This document shows, one piece after another, positions 1,859 to 22,081 of a DNA stretch of 22,114 bases (positions are counted from its first letter, which is position 1; each line of letters starts with the position of its first letter). The DNA lies in IMG/VR virus record IMGVR_UViG_3300044911_001153, positions 1 through 22,114 of that record. One strand, written 5' to 3'. Under the pieces are notes generated by a model that was not told where the DNA came from, did not search any database, and saw only the letters and a list, made by a program, of their open reading frames with translations. Position numbers and translations under genes: made by a program. The DNA is from a virus.

Positions 1859-3061
1859 CTATCGCGCAAAATATCTGAGTATTACTATTCCAGATCCGCC
1901 CGATCCACCAGGTCCATAATTTGCTCCTCCTCCTCCCCCACCAGTATTTACAGTTCCAGGATTACCCCCAATAGATCCAGAGTTTGATCCTGCGCCGGCG
2001 CCACCTCCACCTGGACCTCCGTTACCACCAGTTCCATTTCCACCGTTGAAATCTCCACCACCACCTCCTCCGCCGCCGGCATAAGTTACGGATGAACCAC
2101 TAATTGATGATGCTGTTCCTGAACCACCAGGTCCACCAGGTCCACTACCAGGAGACCCAGCAGAACTTGCTCCACCACCTCCACCTGCTCCATAAGCATT
2201 TCCACTCTGCCCCTGATTTCCTCCAGGATTTCCTTGTGGTGGTGACGTTGGCGGTGTGTTTCCTGTCCCGCCAACCCCTTCTCCAGGGACACCAGATGTC
2301 CCACCACCTGATCCACCAGATTGACCAGAACCACCACCACTTCCAGCACCACCACCAGTAGAAGTGCAAACAGGAATAGAAGAAGGACTTCCATTACCAC
2401 CGCCGCCGGCACCGACAACAACAGGATAAGAATTACCAGCATTTACTCTAAAATCATTTCCTGTTCTAAAACCACCGGCACCGCCGCCTCCACCGCCGCG
2501 ATTATTTCGTGTAGATCCACTACCACCACCAGCTACTACAAGATATTCAACAAGTCCTGGACCTGTGTTAGTAACTACAAAAGAACCAGATGCTGAGAAT
2601 GTATGAACTTTATATTTATTTCCGTCCGAATCTGTATAGGTAGATATAGTTCCACCAGTTGCTTGAATAAAAGATCTATTAGTATCATACCATCCAGTTC
2701 CATCGTAAAATTGTAAGGTGCCAGTATCATCATTATAAATGATAGTGCCTTTGGCAGTTCCAACACCAGCGTTACGTCCTGTTGTCGTTGTAGCACCTAG
2801 ACCAATCTGATTATTTCTTATAAAACTGTCACCGACATTAATACCACCAGAAAACGTAGAGACTCCAGAAGTATTTACCGTTCCAGTTACATTGCCAGAT
2901 ACATTTCCAGTTACATTTCCAGTTAAGTTTCCAGTGATACTCGTCGCACTCAAAATACCGACCGTTGTGATACCTGAAAGAACCACACCAGTATCACTGA
3001 ATGTTACGGTGCTTAATCCACTTCGGTTTTGTATTTGATTGACACGAATTTCAGAAGCCAT
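1859..3061 (-). CDS. Glycine-rich tail fibre/adhesin-like protein, 400 aa
   Basis: Begins MASEIRVNQIQNRSGLSTVTF, an N-terminus I recognise from cyanophage tail fibres, then T-G-N-V repeats (about residues 45-65) and a shared block RNNQIGLGATTTTGRNAGVGTA. From about residue 165 a glycine-rich domain starts with EYLVVAGGGSGS and continues as runs of G with S, N and P, ending GGSGIVILRYFAR. The EYLVV...GIVILRY frame is typical of the Gly_rich_2-type domain, thought to pack polyglycine-II helices as in some phage receptor-binding adhesins. Probably the distal receptor-contacting part of a fibre. The C-terminal RYFAR differs from the IIAYPS ending of its paralogue, and relics of that ending lie just downstream. 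Transcribed from an ATAAATA motif 14 nt before the ATG; no Shine-Dalgarno seen. Confidence 0.75.
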   Translation of the reverse strand: MASEIRVNQIQNRSGLSTVTFSDTGVVLSGITTVGILSATSITGNLTGNVTGNVSGNVTGTVNTSGVSTFSGGINVGDSFIRNNQIGLGATTTTGRNAGVGTAKGTIIYNDDTGTLQFYDGTGWYDTNRSFIQATGGTISTYTDSDGNKYKVHTFSASGSFVVTNTGPGLVEYLVVAGGGSGSTRNNRGGGGGGAGGFRTGNDFRVNAGNSYPVVVGAGGGGNGSPSSIPVCTSTGGGAGSGGGSGQSGGSGGGTSGVPGEGVGGTGNTPPTSPPQGNPGGNQGQSGNAYGAGGGGGASSAGSPGSGPGGPGGSGTASSISGSSVTYAGGGGGGGGDFNGGNGTGGNGGPGGGGAGAGSNSGSIGGNPGTVNTGGGGGGANYGPGGSGGSGIVILRYFAR

Positions 3062-3075
3062 TATGGTTTTTTAGG

Positions 3076-3082
3076 TATTTAT
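3076..3082 (-). promoter_or_regulatory. T4-type late promoter motif ATAAATA
   Basis: ATAAATA on the minus strand, 14 nt before the ATG at 3061. The TAA stop of the upstream chaperone frame (3079-3081) lies inside the motif. The sequence from motif to start codon (3057-3082) is identical to that at 5749-5774. Confidence 0.6.
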
Positions 3083-3450
3083 TGTGGTTTAACTGGCCAA
3101 TCAACACCAGAAATACCCAGACGATTTGTAAAATCTAAAATCGGACTTGCAATGTCTGGAAGGTCTCTCAATTCTTGACGATAACTTAACTGTTCTGGTG
3201 TTGGAGTTCTATCAGGAAGAACCCACCAATCAGTTTCCGAAATGAGACGGTCTCTTTCTATACGAAGAAGTCTCATTGGTTCTGCTGCTTTGAGTTCTTC
3301 TATCTTTGATTCTACTTCTGCTTTTGTTGGTTTCTTTTGCCCACCTTCCTATACTGGCGGTTCATTCCATTCAATCCCATCATAACAATTTCCACTTACA
3401 GCAAATCTTGCTCCAGGTCTTATATTTAAAATTGCCTTAAAAATATCCAT
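3079..3450 (-). pseudogene. Tail assembly chaperone gene interrupted by an in-frame amber codon
   Basis: One continuous minus-strand frame of 124 codons, from the ATG at 3450 to the TAA at 3079, is broken only by a TAG at 3349-3351. The first part reads MDIFKAILNIRPGARFAV... to IEWNEPPV; after the TAG it continues EGGQKKPTKAEVESKIEELK, then RLLRIERDRLISETDWW...YRQELRDLPDI and ends DWPVKPQ. The second half matches the phage tail assembly chaperone family (RD-x-L-x-x-x-DW ... YRQxLRDLP), and the intact paralogue at 9151-9621 ends with the similar SWPIKPE. The start overlaps the stop of the upstream fibre gene (TAATG) with GGAGG 10 nt upstream, as at 9621. Downstream of the TAG, translation could restart only at an internal ATG (3276, giving 65 aa). 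A point mutation, a sequencing error or stop-codon readthrough are all possible. Confidence 0.8.
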
Positions 3451-4460
3451 TATGCAGAAACCTCCATCAAAGTAATAGTAGATGCTGGTTGACCATAGTA
3501 ATCTGCAGTATCGTAATCAAACCCTGTTCTATTAAAAAATAAAGAATATGTACTATACCCATTTAATTGAACACCATAAGTTGTTGCCGATGTTGTAGTT
3601 GGAGAATCCAAGTAATCATAACCAATAGTAATCCAGTTATAACCGTATGTTGATTGCCCATCATAATTCATAGCAGCAAAGGAACATCTTGTTCTCGATC
3701 CCCTAGCATCTCCATAACTTTCAACTATTGGAGATCCATTTCTAGTTATTCTTCCTTGAATCTCCCAATACCCAAATCCTATATGCATTTGCATCATAAC
3801 TAAAATTTTACTAGTAGAAGAACTAGGAGTTATAGTGGCCGTATATGGAGTGACTTGATAAAAAGATGTTCCATCAGAAGAAGATGACCAAGTAGTTTTA
3901 CAAATTGATTGAACAACCTGTAAAATACTTCCAGTTTGTTGAAGAATTGGATTACCAGAACTATTTAATATCTTTGTTCCTGCTGTAGAAAGTTTAAAGT
4001 TTCCAGAACTATCAAGTCTTGCTCTTTCCGTTCCAAAAGTTTTAAATATTAAATTATTGTTAGTTGCCGCATTTAGTTCAACATCTCCAGAAGAGTTAAG
4101 TCCATAATATGAAGTTGCGGAAGAACCATTATCTAGTCTAATAAAATTTGTTGACGTAGGACTATAAAAATGAACTCTTTCTTGTGGATTTGCGGTTCCT
4201 ATACCCAAATTACCACTCACATAGACACCACCAGTGACCTGAAGTGGTTGTGATGCGGTTCCTGTGCTTGTTCCACTTCCTATAAGAACAGGACCACTTG
4301 TAAAAGTAGAAACACCAGTTATATTAATATTTGTACCGCTACTTATATTAACTCCACTTACATTTATATTTCCCCCAGAAACATTGTGAAAGGATAAAGT
4401 ACTTCCACTTGAAGTAATGCTATTAATACCAGTAATACCTGTTGGGGTAATAATCGTCAT
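3450..4460 (-). CDS. Tail fibre-like protein, 336 aa
   Basis: N-terminal half is built of short beta-strand repeats rich in G, S, T, N and V (NINVSGVNISSG, ITGVSTFTSG) with a VSGNLGIGTANPQERVHF segment typical of cyanophage fibres. From about residue 180 the composition changes to a more globular domain (ILQVVQSICKTTWSSS ... SKILVMMQMHIGFGYWEIQG ... TITLMEVSA), similar in style to C-terminal fibre domains of marine phages. Likely a short side or tail fibre with a C-terminal binding or trimerisation domain. Its stop overlaps the ATG of the chaperone gene by one base, pairing a fibre with a dedicated assembly chaperone. The ATG at 4460 has a GGGAGA ribosome site and an ATAAATA motif 21 nt upstream. 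Confidence 0.72.
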   Translation of the reverse strand: MTIITPTGITGINSITSSGSTLSFHNVSGGNINVSGVNISSGTNINITGVSTFTSGPVLIGSGTSTGTASQPLQVTGGVYVSGNLGIGTANPQERVHFYSPTSTNFIRLDNGSSATSYYGLNSSGDVELNAATNNNLIFKTFGTERARLDSSGNFKLSTAGTKILNSSGNPILQQTGSILQVVQSICKTTWSSSSDGTSFYQVTPYTATITPSSSTSKILVMMQMHIGFGYWEIQGRITRNGSPIVESYGDARGSRTRCSFAAMNYDGQSTYGYNWITIGYDYLDSPTTTSATTYGVQLNGYSTYSLFFNRTGFDYDTADYYGQPASTITLMEVSA

Positions 4461-4488: not shown

Positions 4489-5753
4489 CAGACCACAACA
4501 TAATTACCATCAATCGTCAAAACTCCATTAATGTTTACAGGTCCTGCCATCAGACCATTAAAGTTTGTTCCAATGTAATGATTACCATTCAGAGTATTAT
4601 CATAGATAACCATTCCATTTGAAACATAAAGTCCATTGAACGAGTTACCAACACCAGTAAGTCCTGATACATCAACGCTTGCGGTATTGACTCCAACAGA
4701 ACTTTGAGTCGTGATACCAGCAGTGTTTGCTCTCCACTTGGAAGAAACAACACCCGTCAACATTGAACCATCACCAACGAACTTGGATGCCGTAACGATT
4801 CCTGCTCCAACGTTACCCATCGAAACAGCAGCACCAGTCGTGTTGATGCCACCAACTACTATAAAGTCATCACGTTTTAATACTACGTTTCCAGTGCGCC
4901 CATAGAATCCTGTAACATTACTTGTGACAGCACCAGCAAAACCAATGTGTCTTGCCTGAATGACTGTACCGTTTCCAGGAGCAGAAGTGAAGACTAACTC
5001 ATTTGACAGAGCACTATAAGCACGAGTAGTGTCTTGATCGCTAGGATACTGAACGACACCATCAATCGTGACTAGAAGACTCTCACTGTTTGGAACTTCT
5101 TGTGAGAGATTGAAGACTGTTTGAGAACCAGTGCCCGTGAAGTTATCTACCTTATTATCGGTAATATCAAAGGTTGGAAAGTTGTTCGCTACCAGATTTC
5201 CCCAGAAGACATCAGTGTTGACTGGTGGTGTTGAGAAGATAATAACCGAATCAATATCAAAACCAAAACCATTTGCTGGTGTTGTGGTATCGTTTGGTTG
5301 CTGAATGACACCATTGATTGAAATTGTTAGTTGAGCAGCACGGGACATTGCTGCTTTAGTTCCGCTGTCGTAGGTTGCTTTGAACTTTGTGTTAATGCTG
5401 TCAAAAGCAACGTTGAGTGTATGAGTCGTTCCAGTTCCTAGCGCATTGAAATTGATTGCGTTATTGTTGTTTGCGTCTGATAGTGTAAGAGCAAGTTTAA
5501 CGGTGTTCTGATCGTTCTTAATGATATAGTAAGCAGTTCCAGAGGTCAGACCACCAATTGCTGTTCCAGTGGTACTATAAGTGACTCTCTGCCCTGTGAT
5601 GAAGCGGTGATTATTTGAAGTAATTGTATCATCGGTAAGAGATACAACGGACGCTGACGACCCATTAAACGTCAGCGTGTATGATGAGATATCATCTAGT
5701 ATCTTGAAACTATTGTTTTCGCCTGCCGCAGGTCTGTTACCAAGATATGCCAT
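4488..5753 (-). CDS. Tail fibre-like virion protein, 421 aa (MAYLGNRPA type)
   Basis: Starts MAYLGNRPAAGENNSFKILDD, an N-terminus I recognise from many cyanophage structural proteins. Residues 30-130 carry a beta-rich domain (TLTFNGSSASVVSLTDDTI ... NHRFITGQRVTYS ... GLTSGTAYYIIKND), residues 130-260 two copies of an NGV-type strand domain (LTISINGVIQQPNDTT and LLVTIDGVVQYPSDQDTT), then a linker with GFYGRTGNVVL and AGIVTASKFVGDGSMLTGV, and a C-terminus with GLYVSNGMVIYDN and ...INGVLTIDGNYVVV. The modular layout fits a fibre or baseplate-attached spike. It is a single-gene unit with its own ATAAATA motif. Exact attachment point on the virion cannot be told from sequence. Confidence 0.75.
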   Translation of the reverse strand: MAYLGNRPAAGENNSFKILDDISSYTLTFNGSSASVVSLTDDTITSNNHRFITGQRVTYSTTGTAIGGLTSGTAYYIIKNDQNTVKLALTLSDANNNNAINFNALGTGTTHTLNVAFDSINTKFKATYDSGTKAAMSRAAQLTISINGVIQQPNDTTTPANGFGFDIDSVIIFSTPPVNTDVFWGNLVANNFPTFDITDNKVDNFTGTGSQTVFNLSQEVPNSESLLVTIDGVVQYPSDQDTTRAYSALSNELVFTSAPGNGTVIQARHIGFAGAVTSNVTGFYGRTGNVVLKRDDFIVVGGINTTGAAVSMGNVGAGIVTASKFVGDGSMLTGVVSSKWRANTAGITTQSSVGVNTASVDVSGLTGVGNSFNGLYVSNGMVIYDNTLNGNHYIGTNFNGLMAGPVNINGVLTIDGNYVVV

Positions 5754-5774: not shown

Positions 5775-8077
5775 GAAGGGTAGGCGATGATGACGATACC
5801 GGAACCACCAGCACCGCTAGGTGCGTCTGATCCACCACCACCACCACCAGTATTAACTATTCCAGAAGAACCAGAGTTAGCGAGACCAGCTCCGTTACCC
5901 CCACCAGCATAAGGACCTCCACCGCCAGGTCCAGATCCACCAGTTCCAAATAATGGTGCTGGATCGGAAGATCCTCCTCCACCACCCGCCACCCAATATC
6001 CACCACCACCTGGACCGGGTGCTCCTACGGATGACTGTGGATTTCTAAACGTTGTGGGAAGTTGAACTCCAATTCCACCATGACCACCAGTTGCAGGGGT
6101 TCCCGACATTCCAGCACCACCAGCACCTCCACCTCCACCAGCTCCATACGCAGGTGTTGTTGATGGTCCCCCACCACCTACAAATCCTTGTCCAGGAACT
6201 GCTGATCCTCCACCAGATGAAGGAGATGAATAACCGCCGCCGCCTCCAGAACCACCATTATTACCTGGTGCTGAACCAGCACCTCCACCTCCTCCACCCC
6301 CAGTAGCGGGATATGATGGACCAAAAGAGGAAGGAGAACCTTGATTCCCATTAGAAGTTTTTGCAACACTGGCGCCGCCGCCGCCGACAGTTACAGTGAT
6401 TGGAGTTGGTGATACTGGTGCAGAATTTCCTGTAATATATCCACCTGCTCCGCCTCCGCCACCATTATCTCCAGCACCGCCACTACCACCTCCCGCAACA
6501 ACAACATATTCAACAGAAGTCAAACTAGGATTAGTGACCGTAAATGTTCCTGATGATAAGAAGGTATGGATAGTCTTACCACCAGAATAAGATATCAAAC
6601 CACCAGTTGCTTTTGCGGTTGCCGATAAGTTTCCAATTGGATATCGAACAACTACAATACCAGATCCCCCATTACCGCCAATAGTATCTGCGGCGCCACC
6701 GCCTCCACCAGTAGCAAAAGTTCCACCAATTCCACTTGTTCCACCACCAGGAGCTCCGCCACCAAGACCACCAGCACCAGAATCTCCTGGAAATACTGAT
6801 GGAGCTGGTCCACCACCACCACCACCGCCAGCATAATGTGTTGATATTCCAGTAATAGAGTATTGTAAACCAGCGCCCCCAGCACCACCAGAAGTTGGAG
6901 TTGCATTGCTACCACTAGATCCAGCACCTCCACCACCACCACAATGTCCACCTCCACCAGTGGTTGATGTTCCACCATCATTACCCCAACCATTAGCAGG
7001 AGAAACACTTTCATTAGTTCCTCCACCATTAGCGCCGCCGCCGCCAACACTTCCAGTAGTAACAGAGTCAGCAGCAGCGCCACCACCAGAACCGCCAGGT
7101 CCACCATTAAATGAACCATCTCTACCACCAAACCCTCCTCCAGGAGAAGTTATAGTAAGGGGAGAACTTGGATGAGTTAAAACACTACTACTACCTTGAA
7201 CTGCGGATGTAGGAGCACTAGATCCGTTACCACCAGCGCCAACAGTAATTGGATAACTTGTGCTTGATGCTACGGGAAAATTTGTATTATATTTTAAAGC
7301 ACCTGCTCCTCCACCACCACCTCTATTAGTTCCCGCGCCGCCGCCACCACCAACTACAAGATACTCAACAGTATTGCTGATAGCAGGAACACTAGTAACA
7401 CTAAAAGTTCCTGATGATGTGAAGATGTGTGCTCTATAAATTGTAGAACCAGAAGTATAGTCACTTATCGTTCCACCAGTTGCTTCAATAAATGTTTCTC
7501 CAGCATTTGTCCATCTATTTCCATTATATACTTGAATTGTATTAGTCGTTGAATTGAATACAATAGTTCCAGTTGCAGTTCCTACACCAGCATTACGTCC
7601 AGTGGTCGTCGTAGCACCTAAACCAATTTGATTATTTCTTATAAACGCACTTCCTACTGTAATACTTGTCGTAGCACCAACTTGAATACCACCAGAAAAT
7701 GTGGAGAGTCCAACAACGGAGGCACCAGCACCAACTACAAGACCACTTCTTGCGGTAATAACACCAACAGAATCAACGTTAGTTACATCTTCATAGGTCA
7801 CTGTTCCAGCAACACTGATGTTTCCACTGAAAGTTGCGCTTGCTGCTGTGATAGAACCCACAGTAATGTTGGGTGTTCCGGTCAGACCTTGTGCGTTTGT
7901 TGCCAGTGTTGCGGAAGTTGCGTTTCCAGAAAAAGTTGTAGCGGTAACAACTCCGGTGACATTAATACCAGAAGAATTAATAGTAACAGCAGATCCAACA
8001 TTTACAGAAGTGGCTGTTGCTACTCCAAGAGTAACCGATGACTGTATAACGTCTCCACTAATCTTTGTTAAAGCCAT
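5771..8077 (-). CDS. Glycine-rich fibre/adhesin-like protein with two Gly-rich domains, 768 aa
   Basis: Begins MALTKISGDVIQSSVTLGVAT, then fibre-type strands including VTYEDVTNVDSVGVITARSG and the block IRNNQIGLGATTTTGRNAGVG shared with the 400-aa protein. Two glycine-rich domains follow: the first from EYLVVGGGGGAG (about residue 238) to GGSGIVVVRYP (about 478), the second from EYVVVAGGGSGG (about 525) to GGSGIVIIAYPS at the end. Each is framed by the same VEYxVVxGGG and GSGIVxxxYP strands, so this is a domain duplication. Polyglycine-II adhesin folds of this kind are known in phage receptor-binding proteins; receptor binding here is inferred. The ATG lies one base after the stop of the small 108-aa gene, so translation is probably coupled. 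The glycine codons make the opposite strand proline/histidine-rich and open over long stretches, which is an artefact. Confidence 0.77.
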   Translation of the reverse strand: MALTKISGDVIQSSVTLGVATATSVNVGSAVTINSSGINVTGVVTATTFSGNATSATLATNAQGLTGTPNITVGSITAASATFSGNISVAGTVTYEDVTNVDSVGVITARSGLVVGAGASVVGLSTFSGGIQVGATTSITVGSAFIRNNQIGLGATTTTGRNAGVGTATGTIVFNSTTNTIQVYNGNRWTNAGETFIEATGGTISDYTSGSTIYRAHIFTSSGTFSVTSVPAISNTVEYLVVGGGGGAGTNRGGGGGAGALKYNTNFPVASSTSYPITVGAGGNGSSAPTSAVQGSSSVLTHPSSPLTITSPGGGFGGRDGSFNGGPGGSGGGAAADSVTTGSVGGGGANGGGTNESVSPANGWGNDGGTSTTGGGGHCGGGGGAGSSGSNATPTSGGAGGAGLQYSITGISTHYAGGGGGGGPAPSVFPGDSGAGGLGGGAPGGGTSGIGGTFATGGGGGAADTIGGNGGSGIVVVRYPIGNLSATAKATGGLISYSGGKTIHTFLSSGTFTVTNPSLTSVEYVVVAGGGSGGAGDNGGGGGAGGYITGNSAPVSPTPITVTVGGGGASVAKTSNGNQGSPSSFGPSYPATGGGGGGGAGSAPGNNGGSGGGGGYSSPSSGGGSAVPGQGFVGGGGPSTTPAYGAGGGGGAGGAGMSGTPATGGHGGIGVQLPTTFRNPQSSVGAPGPGGGGYWVAGGGGGSSDPAPLFGTGGSGPGGGGPYAGGGNGAGLANSGSSGIVNTGGGGGGSDAPSGAGGSGIVIIAYPS

Positions 8078-8410: not shown

Positions 8411-9133
8411 CTATCCGAATACAATTGAATAAATCAAAGCGTTTTCCAAAACGCTATTACCATTAACTTTATAATCTCCTGTGATATTTATATCTCCTAC
8501 TGCGTCTATCTTATAAGCAGGTTGAGTGCTCCCCAAACCAACGTTGCCTGTTGATGGTTGGAATACAAAACTGGATGTTCCAGTCGTTGCGATACCGACC
8601 GTACTTACACCAGAATTATTCGCAAGCGTTGGATAAACATATGATGAAGATAGGTCCTGGTTGATGACCGCAAACGCACTGACTCCAAAAAGATTTGAAC
8701 CATCACCATAGTAAACAACGGTAGTTACACCAGGATTTGTTGAGGTAACAATGCCAGTATTGGTGATTTTAAGACCACCTTTTACATAAAGTTCATTACC
8801 AACATAGAGATCACCACCAGTCGTTGTAATACCACCAGCAGAAGCAAGTGTTGTGACTCCAACGACTGATAAGTTACCACCAACTCTTACGTCACTTCTG
8901 GCAGTAATAACACCGACAGAATCAATGTTTGTTACGTCTTCGTAAGATAGTGTTCCACCGATAGAAATATTTCCACTTACAATGGCATCACCAATAACAT
9001 GCAGTTTTGCCTGTGGATTTGTGGTGCCGATGCCAACATAGGGAGTCGCAGTCGTAGCGATTCCAATGTTCTTTGTGGAATCATCTACTACTATAAAAGA
9101 ACCTAGTTGTGATAACTCCCTATTATTAGCCAT
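8411..9133 (-). CDS. Tail fibre-like protein, 240 aa
   Basis: Begins MANNRELSQLGSFIVVDDST, a common cyanophage fibre N-terminus, followed by the phage-fibre signature VGIGTTNPQAKLHVIGDA, the block LSYEDVTNIDSVGVITARSD (also in the 768-aa protein), a GGDLYVGNELYVKGGL strand pair, YYGDGSNLFGVSAFAV, and a second VGLGSTQPAYKIDAVGDI near the C-terminus. The repeats of 10-15 residues fit a fibrous trimeric beta-structure. It leads a three-gene operon with the 108-aa and 768-aa genes. The ATG has an ATAAATA motif 14 nt upstream and no clear Shine-Dalgarno. Confidence 0.75.
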   Translation of the reverse strand: MANNRELSQLGSFIVVDDSTKNIGIATTATPYVGIGTTNPQAKLHVIGDAIVSGNISIGGTLSYEDVTNIDSVGVITARSDVRVGGNLSVVGVTTLASAGGITTTGGDLYVGNELYVKGGLKITNTGIVTSTNPGVTTVVYYGDGSNLFGVSAFAVINQDLSSSYVYPTLANNSGVSTVGIATTGTSSFVFQPSTGNVGLGSTQPAYKIDAVGDINITGDYKVNGNSVLENALIYSIVFG

Positions 9134-9147
9134 TATGCTTTTTTAGT

Positions 9148-9154
9148 TATTTAT
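9148..9154 (-). promoter_or_regulatory. T4-type late promoter motif ATAAATA
   Basis: Minus-strand ATAAATA, 14 nt before the ATG at 9133; the TAA stop of the chaperone gene (9151-9153) lies inside it. The 26-bp stretch 9129-9154 differs from those at 3057-3082 and 5749-5774 at only two positions. Confidence 0.6.
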
Positions 9155-9621
9155 TCTGGTTTGATTGGCCAACTAGAATGAGTCAGATCCAATACTAATG
9201 GTTTGGGGTCAGTAATATTTTCGGGCAGATCTCTCAATTCTTGACGATATAAAGTCCACTCTGCTTTTTTAGCGTCAGACAACTGAACATCTGCAACTTG
9301 TGTCCAATCACATTTAGATAATTTTATATTCCTCAAATCTCTTAACTCTCCCCAATAATCTCTTGCTGCTTCAATAGCATCAAGTTCATCTTGAAGAATT
9401 TTCTTTTGGGTATTAAAGTCTGTAACTGCTTGTTCAAAAATTCCAATATCTTCTATTCTTTCATTTGGAATTTCATCATTATATTCTATCTCACCCCAAG
9501 TATCATACCATTGAATGGCGTGAATATTTGATGGAATCCAACTTAAATCTTGCTGAATATTGAGTAGTCCATTATTATCAATCGCTATATATTTGTCTTT
9601 AGGAATAATTGTAAGTCTCAT
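9151..9621 (-). CDS. Phage tail assembly chaperone-like protein, 156 aa
   Basis: N-terminal part (MRLTIIPKDKYIAIDNNG ... IHAIQWYDTWGEIEYNDE) resembles fibre-chaperone N-domains that contain a Q-W-Y-D/G-x-GEIEY motif. A helical centre follows (FEQAVTDFNTQKKILQDELDAIEAARD, likely coiled coil), then the typical chaperone tail RNIKLSKCDWTQVADVQLSD ... AEWTLYRQELRDLPENI. That last pattern (R-x-x-x-L-x-x-CDWTQ, LS/TDAxKxxW, YRQxLRDLP) is the phage tail assembly chaperone family signature. Such proteins help fold or attach tail fibres and are normally not part of the mature virion. The ATG overlaps the stop of the 112-aa gene (TAATG), with AAGGAG six bases upstream. A paralogous but amber-interrupted copy lies at 3079-3450. 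Confidence 0.82.
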   Translation of the reverse strand: MRLTIIPKDKYIAIDNNGLLNIQQDLSWIPSNIHAIQWYDTWGEIEYNDEIPNERIEDIGIFEQAVTDFNTQKKILQDELDAIEAARDYWGELRDLRNIKLSKCDWTQVADVQLSDAKKAEWTLYRQELRDLPENITDPKPLVLDLTHSSWPIKPE

Positions 9622-9959
9622 TATTCTCCTTCAGGTAATGTATTTATTGGTTGATTTAGAGGCACTACCATCGTCGGTAAAACACCTTGCTGAATTGCTG
9701 AAATATAAAGTTGTTGATTTGATTCATTTGCTCGTACAACTTCATTACGAAAAGATTCGACTGCTGCTCCAGTTTGATTTGATTTTTGAGCAATCTCTAC
9801 TGCCATAAAAGGCATCCAGGTCACAGCACAACCCCACTCATCCACTGGTTCTCCAGTATTTGGATTAGTACCTCGCATTTGAGTGTACCAAGAACATTTG
9901 AGTCCAATACAATCTTTTTTGATTAGAGGGCAGAAGTTTCCTGGTTTGATTTTTGCCAT
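9621..9959 (-). CDS. Conserved marine-phage protein with cysteine cluster, 112 aa
   Basis: Starts MAKIKPGNFCPLIKKDCIGLKCSWYTQMRG and continues EPVDEWGCAVTWMPFMAVEIAQKSNQTGAAVESFRNE, a sequence type I recognise as widespread in cyanophages and other marine phages, always hypothetical. Four cysteines lie in the first 45 residues (FC-P-x5-C-x4-C ... GCA), which could bind a metal or an iron-sulphur cluster; that is inference. The C-terminal half is helical and ends in a short Pro-rich tail. It sits between the collar-domain fibre and the chaperone gene and overlaps the latter by one base, so it probably serves fibre assembly. The leader has a TATAAT box (9974-9979) but no ATAAATA and no clear Shine-Dalgarno. 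Confidence 0.8.
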   Translation of the reverse strand: MAKIKPGNFCPLIKKDCIGLKCSWYTQMRGTNPNTGEPVDEWGCAVTWMPFMAVEIAQKSNQTGAAVESFRNEVVRANESNQQLYISAIQQGVLPTMVVPLNQPINTLPEGE

Positions 9960-20177: not shown

Positions 20178-20549
20178 TCAATGAGTATTAGTGCTTAAAT
20201 ACTCAATCATTGCTTGGAGAGTGCTTACATTATCTCCAACAAGACCAAGAGCAGTGTTGCAATTATTACAAAGAACACCACGAACCTTATTTGTAGAGTG
20301 GCAGTGGTCTATACATTTCTTTGTTAGTTCTACATTACATATCTGACAGTTCTCATTCTTCATCAAGTCATTATATTGGTCCTCCGTGAGTTTAAACTTG
20401 CGTCTGGCATATTCGTGAGTTTTATAATACTGTCTGCGAACTTCTCTTTCGCAGTCCTTACATTTTGATTGAACACCAGAAGGTCTACTGCTTCTTTTAG
20501 AGAACCCATCAAGTTCTTTTATTTGTCCACATCTGCTACAAGTTTTCAT
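20178..20549 (-). CDS. Free-standing endonuclease VII-like homing endonuclease, 123 aa
   Basis: Seen: an N-terminal zinc-finger-like part (MKTCSRCGQIKELDGFSKRS and SKCKDCERE), then the nuclease core ENCQICNVELTKKCIDHCHS and TNKVRGVLCNNCNTALGLVG. The pattern CxxC - DHCH - x - T - x - x - VRG - x - LC - x - x - CN - x - x - LG is that of recombination endonuclease VII (His-Me finger; T4 gp49 nuclease domain). It lies between psbA and psbD. From memory, S-PM2 encodes a free-standing homing endonuclease, F-CphI, at this place, which cuts intronless psbA near the intron site; I infer the same role here. The leader holds an ATAAATA motif and a TATAAT-like box but no Shine-Dalgarno. Confidence 0.87.
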   Translation of the reverse strand: MKTCSRCGQIKELDGFSKRSSRPSGVQSKCKDCEREVRRQYYKTHEYARRKFKLTEDQYNDLMKNENCQICNVELTKKCIDHCHSTNKVRGVLCNNCNTALGLVGDNVSTLQAMIEYLSTNTH

Positions 20550-20627: not shown

Positions 20628-20699
20628 TTAACCGATTGCGGGAGCAGTAAGAGCAACTGGGGTTGCTTCTGCTGCTGCAAGGTCAAGTGGGAAGTTGTG
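20628..20699 (-). CDS. psbA: psbA exon 2
   Basis: On its own this 24-codon stretch has no start codon. It encodes the conserved D1 C-terminus from His-337 (canonical numbering), including the carboxy-terminal extension after LDLA that is removed during D1 maturation, and ends with TAA at 20628-20630. Easily missed because it is out of frame with exon 1 in the genomic sequence. Confidence 0.95.
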   Translation of the reverse strand, partial: HNFPLDLAAAEATPVALTAPAIG

Positions 20700-21919
20700 C
20701 TTCCAGTTTGGACTATATCTTCACCATACTCTTTATGAGGTTAGGTGTCGGACGCTATTGGTGTATTACATCCCACGCTTGGGAAACCACCTAGTCTCTG
20801 AACCTTCCCTAGAAGCGTCTAGGGCTTGGCTGCTGATTGCCCGTTAGGGTTTCCAGCAATTCATCCGAAGTTTACCTTGTCTTTTCAGGCAAGGGCGCCC
20901 ACAAATCGAGCGTTGCGTTCGTGCATCACCTCTAATCCGAGTCCAGCACGGTTGAGAACATCAGCCCAAGTGTTGATTACCTTGCCCTGACTATCAACGA
21001 TAGACTGGTTGAAATTAAAGCCATTTAAGTTAAAGGCCATCGTAGAAACACCAAGAGCGGTGAACCAGATACCTACAACAGGCCAGGCAGCAAGGAAGAA
21101 GTGCAGCGAACGGGAGTTATTGAACGAAGCATATTGGAAAATAAGGCGTCCGAAATAACCGTGAGCAGCAACGATGTTATAAGTCTCTTCTTCTTGACCA
21201 AACTTGTAACCATAGTTCTGCGACTCAGACTCAGTGGTTTCACGAACCAGTGAGGAAGTCACAAGAGAACCGTGCATTGCACTAAACAGAGAACCACCGA
21301 AGACACCAGCAACTCCAAGCATATGGAATGGGTGCATCAGGATGTTGTGCTCTGCCTGGAACACAAGCATGTAGTTGAACGTACCAGAGATACCCAAAGG
21401 CATCGCATCAGAGAAAGAACCTTGACCGAAAGGATAGACCAGGAACACTGCGCTAGCAGCAGCAACAGGTGCGCTGTAAGCAACACAGATCCAAGGACGC
21501 ATACCCAGGCGGTAGGAAAGTTCCCACTCACGACCCATGTAGGCGTAGATACCGATCAGGAAGTGGAAGACTACCAGTTGGAAAGGTCCACCGTTGTAAA
21601 GCCACTCATCTAGGGAAGCAGCTTCCCAGATGGGGTAAAAGTGTAGTCCAATAGCGTTGGACGAAGGAATCACAGCACCAGAGATGATGTTGTTTCCGTA
21701 CATGAGTGAACCAGCGACAGGTTCACGGATACCATCGATATCCACAGGAGGCGCGGCAATGAAGGCGACAATGAAGCAGATAGTAGCAGCAAGCAGGCAA
21801 GGAATCATCAGGACTCCGAACCAACCGACATAAAGACGATTATCGGTTGAAGTAACCCAGTTGCAGAACTGTTCCCAAGTATTCGATTGTGATTTTTGAC
21901 GTGAAAGAGTAGCAGTCAT
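20628..21919 (-). CDS. psbA: Photosystem II D1 protein, split by an intron (exon 1 20909-21919, exon 2 20628-20699), 360 aa when spliced
   Basis: Exon 1 encodes 337 residues and exon 2 the last 23 ([23 protein letters not shown]), together the normal D1 length. Seen: the redox-tyrosine and manganese region [32 protein letters not shown] with chlorophyll and manganese ligands, [10 protein letters not shown], the QB pocket [20 protein letters not shown], and the C-terminal [15 protein letters not shown]. Without splicing the frame runs into the intron, adds RFVGALA and stops at 20885 (344 aa). The intron falls after HERNA, so an unspliced product would lack the His-337, Asp-342 and Ala-344 type manganese ligands (canonical numbering). 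D1 turns over fast in light; phage copies replace it during infection. A long 5' leader with a hairpin precedes the ATG, and a terminator follows exon 2. Confidence 0.97.
20700..20908 (-). ncRNA. Group I self-splicing intron in psbA, 209 nt
   Basis: Boundaries follow from D1 homology and from base pairing. Exon 1 ends ...CGCU, which pairs with intron GGCG (20896-20899), giving the standard U-G wobble at the 5' splice site (P1). The adjacent intron UUGUG pairs with CACAA at the start of exon 2 (P10). The last intron base is G. The core is typical: P4-P6 region at 20821-20860 (ATTGCTGGAAACCC and GGGCAATCAGCAGCC), a 7-bp P6 hairpin at 20807-20824, and P7 strands at 20791-20804 (CAGAGACTAG) and 20710-20719 (GATATAGTCC). 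No ORF is inside it. From memory the S-PM2 psbA intron is of similar size (about 212 nt). The nearby endonuclease probably mobilises it. Confidence 0.94.
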
Positions 21920-21970
21920 TTGTTTAAAAAAGTAGTAAGACCATCAGGGAAATGGTGGTGATACTATGCT

Positions 21971-21989
21971 CCCGCCACCCTCAGGCGGG
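21971..21989 (-). promoter_or_regulatory. Hairpin in the psbA leader
   Basis: CCCGCC and GGCGGG can pair as a 6-bp all-GC stem with a 7-nt loop, about 50 nt before the psbA ATG. There is no T run, so it is not a standard terminator in this direction. It could stabilise the mRNA or affect translation; no function is shown. Confidence 0.45.
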
Positions 21990-22081
21990 ATATGAGAGAC
22001 GTAATTTATACACCCATAGGTCTCGGTTAGCGGGTGTGGACAATGTTAAAGAATCTTTACACTCGTTAACATTTGTTTACC

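Follow-up and report, generated by a model that had tools for sequence, protein, structure and literature searches.

What does a single in-frame amber codon in a tail-fibre chaperone gene of a cyanomyovirus represent: a gene that has just been lost, a mistake in the assembled sequence, a stop codon that is read through or the border between two genes? The codon lies in a linear virus record of 22,114 bases (the whole stretch of DNA analysed, hereafter the window), assigned to a cyanomyovirus; it carries psbA and psbD, both on the minus strand, along with a series of tail-fibre genes. When the window was used for a DNA search of a phage collection, the closest matches were the psbA/psbD regions of cyanophages (~80–83% identity), and the best match for the chaperone locus was the freshwater Synechococcus phage S-SRM01, across the border with the next gene. 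The chaperone gene (3079–3450, minus strand) comprises 123 codons, sense codons and amber together, plus a TAA, and is interrupted at codon 34 by the TAG at 3349–3351 (minus strand), where the aligned codon of relatives is a sense codon. Most likely, either an ordinary mutation knocked the gene out recently or the sequence is wrong at a single base, with no new mechanism involved.

Translation of the minus strand from 3450 to 3079 gives MDIFKAILNIRPGARFAVSGNCYDGIEWNEPPV, the amber, EGGQKKPTKAEVESKIEELKAAEPMRLL and further residues up to WPVKPQ and the terminal stop. The amber is the sole internal stop, which confirms the original prediction of a frame that is intact on both sides. The start codon overlaps the TAA of the upstream tail fibre gene (3450–4460, minus strand, 336 aa; its C-terminal part resembles the tail fiber protein phrog_6942) in the motif TAATG, and a GGAGG is found ten bases upstream of the ATG. 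A 40-member profile matches the residues before the stop with its positions 1–30 (E 3e-5) and those after the stop with its positions 31–116 (E 2e-37), placing the two halves in register. The family profile PF16778 (Phage_tail_APC) matches residues 60–123 of the protein when the stop is read through (38.8 bits, E 8.6e-10) and also the ORF that begins at the first ATG after the stop (41 bits, E 1.7e-10). Both scores exceed the curated cut-off of 26.6 bits, in agreement with the chaperone signature that had been noticed in the second half, and residues 60–123 also match PHROG families of tail-fibre assembly. A fold search against the PDB yielded no more than a weak resemblance to 2kz6, a bacterial protein that is itself uncharacterised.

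Relatives of the gene are uninterrupted. In IMG/VR, the read-through protein aligns with 14 loci, all without a stop, in alignments that span the junction or lie within the C-terminal part, and an alignment-based search yielded 80 further loci with equally open frames, so that an in-frame stop was seen in none of these 94 related loci, with a few contigs recurring in both lists. In the annotated isolates HMO-2011, Mosig, CRP-804, Melnitz, ACG-2014j, S-B05 and RB11-B, the chaperone is likewise a single gene that follows another tail gene. Chance adjacency of two frames is ruled out because homology covers both halves, and the idea that two neighbouring genes have been mistaken for one was rejected, since the gene is continuous in every relative; two separate genes at this place were looked for and none were seen. 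Some isolates have two features under one search match, and these proved to be adjacent overlapping genes and not a split chaperone. Judged by sequence and position, the window gene is a member of the PF16778 family and a predicted chaperone: it reaches the profile score and occupies a translationally coupled site just downstream of a tail-fibre gene, and the family feature that this copy lacks is an uninterrupted frame across the N-terminal module and the domain.

The closest contig, IMGVR_UViG_3300035126_000115 (L004/L018, hereafter L018), carries the same fibre tip, chaperone, overlap and next gene. Across window positions 3042–4191, exactly one difference was found in 1,150 bp, at base 3350 within codon 34. 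The remaining aligned columns contain 252 differences in about 5,140 (~5%; block identity 92–97%), a divergence that predicts about 56 differences for a stretch of 1,150 bp. The near-identical segment runs from the fibre tip, which amounts to the final 246 residues of the fibre, through the complete chaperone into the opening codons of the gene that follows. Because of this contrast between one difference in 1,150 bp and ~5% elsewhere, fibre tip and chaperone are taken to have been exchanged very recently, with the amber as the only change since. A search for matching fibre tips revealed no contig besides L018 that carries this one. L018 differs from the window in having a sense codon at position 34 and in missing, from the syntenic place, the 156-aa paralogue discussed below. 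With 94 of 94 relatives open and a near-identical cassette that differs at one base, the proposal of an interrupted chaperone-family gene is well supported. The aligned codon in related phages, which the original prediction had named as a check, specifies Ser in L018 and Trp in the looser relatives L005 and the second copy in L012; no TAG was seen. The amber is one base away from both of these codons, and either may have preceded it. A degenerate pattern across codon 34 matched three other places in IMG/VR, none of them with TAG, and had no match in the genome_contigs collection.

Two explanations account for this picture about equally well. It is close to an even chance that codon 34 has truly undergone a single-base nonsense mutation, making the chaperone allele null or nearly null. 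This reading agrees with the single change to L018 in 1,150 bp against 252 in about 5,140 other columns, with the lack of an in-frame stop in 94 related loci and with the lack of a TAG at the three other IMG/VR places that match across the codon; it also gains from the poor restart site, the lack of a suppressor tRNA in the scanned genomes and the experimentally demonstrated need for a comparable fibre chaperone, all described below. The part of the gene after the stop has not decayed, which speaks against a real mutation, though the allele is too young for any decay to be expected. A somewhat smaller probability, still a substantial one, falls to a consensus or base-calling error, or to a minority variant that ended up in the consensus, in which case the population would have a sense codon and a working chaperone. 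Here, the lone difference to L018 in 1,150 bp would happen to make a stop, TAG occurs at this place in no other contig found, and these genomes contain repeated, mosaic cassettes of fibre and chaperone genes, a setting that favours consensus mistakes. A lone nonsense difference is relatively likelier to come from an error, because errors escape selection and natural mutations do not; yet differences that arise naturally between samples outnumber the errors in contigs. Arguing against an error, the other main genes of the window are open and, in a set of 77 sequences, its psbD shows no private change at the amino-acid level, which sets a loose bound only; as a test of the error rate, the private changes in psbD were uninformative beyond that bound. 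Of the options raised originally, recent loss of function therefore fits the evidence, as does the base-calling error, and neither displaces the other.

If base 3350 is real, as we infer, the events would be as follows. In a cyanomyovirus of the freshwater type, the fibre-coupled chaperone for tail assembly would have arrived on a recently transferred cassette of fibre tip and chaperone, and a single-base change at codon 34 would have created the amber, leaving the allele null or nearly so. Translation would start normally, from a strong ribosome-binding site and the overlap with the fibre gene, and would end after 33 residues, leaving the helical and PF16778 part absent or present in traces. 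The sole product of an obeyed stop would be the N-terminal module (3352–3450, minus strand, 33 codons), which is delimited by translation, profile and structure model. In an AlphaFold model of an intact relative (mean pLDDT 90, 40 sequences), residues 1–28 form a small module (helix 3–10, strands 16–18 and 26–28), residues 29–42 form a loop and residues 43–72 form a long helix running into the conserved domain. Codon 34 is placed in the loop between the two modules, inside an insertion that is missing from most relatives. Loss of the chaperone is the expected outcome of an obeyed stop, and the fibre encoded at 3450–4460 would then mature poorly or not at all.

A parallel is provided by Alteromonas phage V22, in which cell binding by the fibre gp26 requires co-expression of the downstream chaperone gp27 (PMC7289586); by analogy, the fibre encoded at 3450–4460 may fail to mature. 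Like the window gene, gp27 is encoded by a small gene directly downstream of a receptor-binding fibre and is needed experimentally for fibre function (PMC7289586). It is described as similar only to DUF4376 proteins (PMC7289586), and the likeness is one of function and not of family membership. If the mutation is real, this fibre chaperone was inactivated only lately, on a receptor-binding cassette that had itself just been transferred, and the locus captures these phages in the course of gaining and losing host-recognition modules. The amber leaves the picture of known mechanisms unchanged and does not point to a new kind of system; a literature search found no paper on an amber codon in such a chaperone gene.

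Could the two halves be made separately? The ORF that follows the stop (3079–3276, minus strand, 65 aa) contains the entire PF16778 domain, the structure matches include short proteins (about 80 aa) from viruses, and the N-terminal module is joined to another C-terminal part in L209 and probably in L012, showing that the modules are separable in evolution. A two-part gene, with the 33-residue module as one product and a 65-residue domain translated from its own start as the other, is nonetheless very unlikely: the ATG at 3276 lies 72 nt past the stop and has no ribosome-binding site by duplex energy (Shine-Dalgarno duplex of −0.5 kcal/mol, compared with −10.0 at the true start), a restart there would remove the first half of the modelled helix 43–72, and none of the relatives is split here.

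It is also unlikely, if slightly less so, that the amber is read through or suppressed, whether as a leaky stop, by a suppressor tRNA of phage or host or as a recoded TAG, to give a lowered amount of full-length chaperone. The undecayed second half would suit this idea, as would the predicted loop position of the stop, since a loop should accept the residue inserted there. However, no tRNA with a CUA anticodon was detected in the window, S-SRM01, the two large relatives G003 and G011 or the nearest contigs L018, L209 and L210-L211; the whole S-SRM01 genome was scanned with ARAGORN, and its published tRNA list likewise has no CUA anticodon (PMC8557907). The search for an amber suppressor, proposed originally, thus came out negative in the window and the relatives scanned. 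TAG ends the genes 1859–3061 and 8411–9133, where the next stops follow within 1 and 8 residues, and the tail genes (about 17 kb) contain exactly one in-frame TAG. Downstream of the stop, the RNA has less structure than its shuffled versions (z +1.36); no folded readthrough element follows the codon, and the window's only Rfam matches are elsewhere. Taken together, the lack of a CUA tRNA, the use of TAG as a normal stop and the absence of structure after the codon speak against the readthrough or suppression that had been suggested. TAG-recoded phages (genetic code 15, e.g. PMC9523058) share with the window an in-frame TAG in a gene of the late structural module. In contrast to these phages, the window has one such TAG only, and neither many in-frame TAGs in late genes nor disuse of TAG as a terminator is seen; a recoded TAG was rejected, as TAG terminates other genes and a CUA tRNA was not found in the genomes scanned. 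It is highly improbable that the amber acts as a functional switch, in which a leaky stop in the loop between the two modules would allow little full-length chaperone, tune the maturation of one fibre type and thereby select among the several fibre cassettes of the phage, depending on how well the host reads UAG.

The original prediction had further suggested that an intact PF16778 paralogue of 156 aa (9151–9621, minus strand) may compensate for the loss, and that the start of the interrupted gene is coupled to the fibre gene exactly as in this paralogue. The same TAATG is indeed present at both starts, but the gene overlapped by the paralogue (9621–9959, 112 aa) is not a fibre gene, and its product has no PHROG or Pfam match. 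The paralogue shares about 32% identity with the chaperone, limited to its C-terminal 80 residues, and its N-terminal part differs. Compensation is only weakly supported, because the paralogue has no counterpart of the N-terminal module and the gene ahead of it does not encode a fibre. L018, with an intact chaperone and no paralogue, is compatible with compensation, as a single comparison. Around 17820–17856 of L018, which corresponds to 9151–9641 of the window, the paralogue is missing and the flanking genes are joined directly in an otherwise syntenic region.

The locus also informs on how fibre modules are exchanged. The repeat TAAATA(A/C)CTAAAAA is found shortly before the ATGs of fibre genes and often overlaps the preceding stop codon (3081, 5773 and 9153 on the minus strand of the window; 11251, 13943 and 17811 in L018; 3051 and 8375 in S-SRM01). 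The copy next to the chaperone, ATAAATACCTAAAAAACCATA (3062–3083, minus strand), stands before the gene 1859–3061 and overlaps the chaperone stop codon, and such an element is also found upstream of the genes that start at 5753 and 9133. Judged by the late-promoter consensus of the T4 type, elements of the ATAAATACCTAAAAAACCATA type are putative late promoters. These late-promoter-like repeats bound the exchanged fibre cassettes and may offer shared homology for recombination; that fibre tip and chaperone travel as one unit between them is a useful by-product of the analysis. The N-terminal module of the chaperone can be joined to different C-terminal parts. L209 encodes a window-type N-terminal module with a different, YPDxKDQLDA-like C-terminal part at 216–563 and 4645–4989 (both minus strand), and L012 encodes such a module at 5914–6159 (plus strand), where the contig end truncates the C-terminal part. 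At the DNA level, the window chaperone is nearly identical to L005 in its C-terminal half, and modules appear to have been swapped near codon 45.

At the same locus, the freshwater cyanomyovirus isolate S-SRM01 resembles the window in the N-terminus of the fibre, in a small overlapping downstream gene and in the next gene (88% identity over 83 bp). It differs in the fibre tip and in the downstream protein, an unrelated product of 76 aa without a PF16778 match. This protein (MW015081, 2823–3053), the gene for which overlaps the fibre gene, belongs to phrog_20370, of unknown function, and is a candidate for an alternative fibre chaperone.

Elsewhere in the window, psbA (20885–21919, minus strand) is split near its 3' end by a Group I intron (RF00028, 80.6 bits; 20688–20918, minus strand). 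The first exon ends at about MHERNA and the second starts near 20699; the psbA end given by the mechanical ORF call is false. An endonuclease-VII/HNH-like ORF (20178–20549) follows, and a PhotoRC-II RNA element (RF01717, 81 bits; 21956–22048, minus strand) is located just upstream of psbA.
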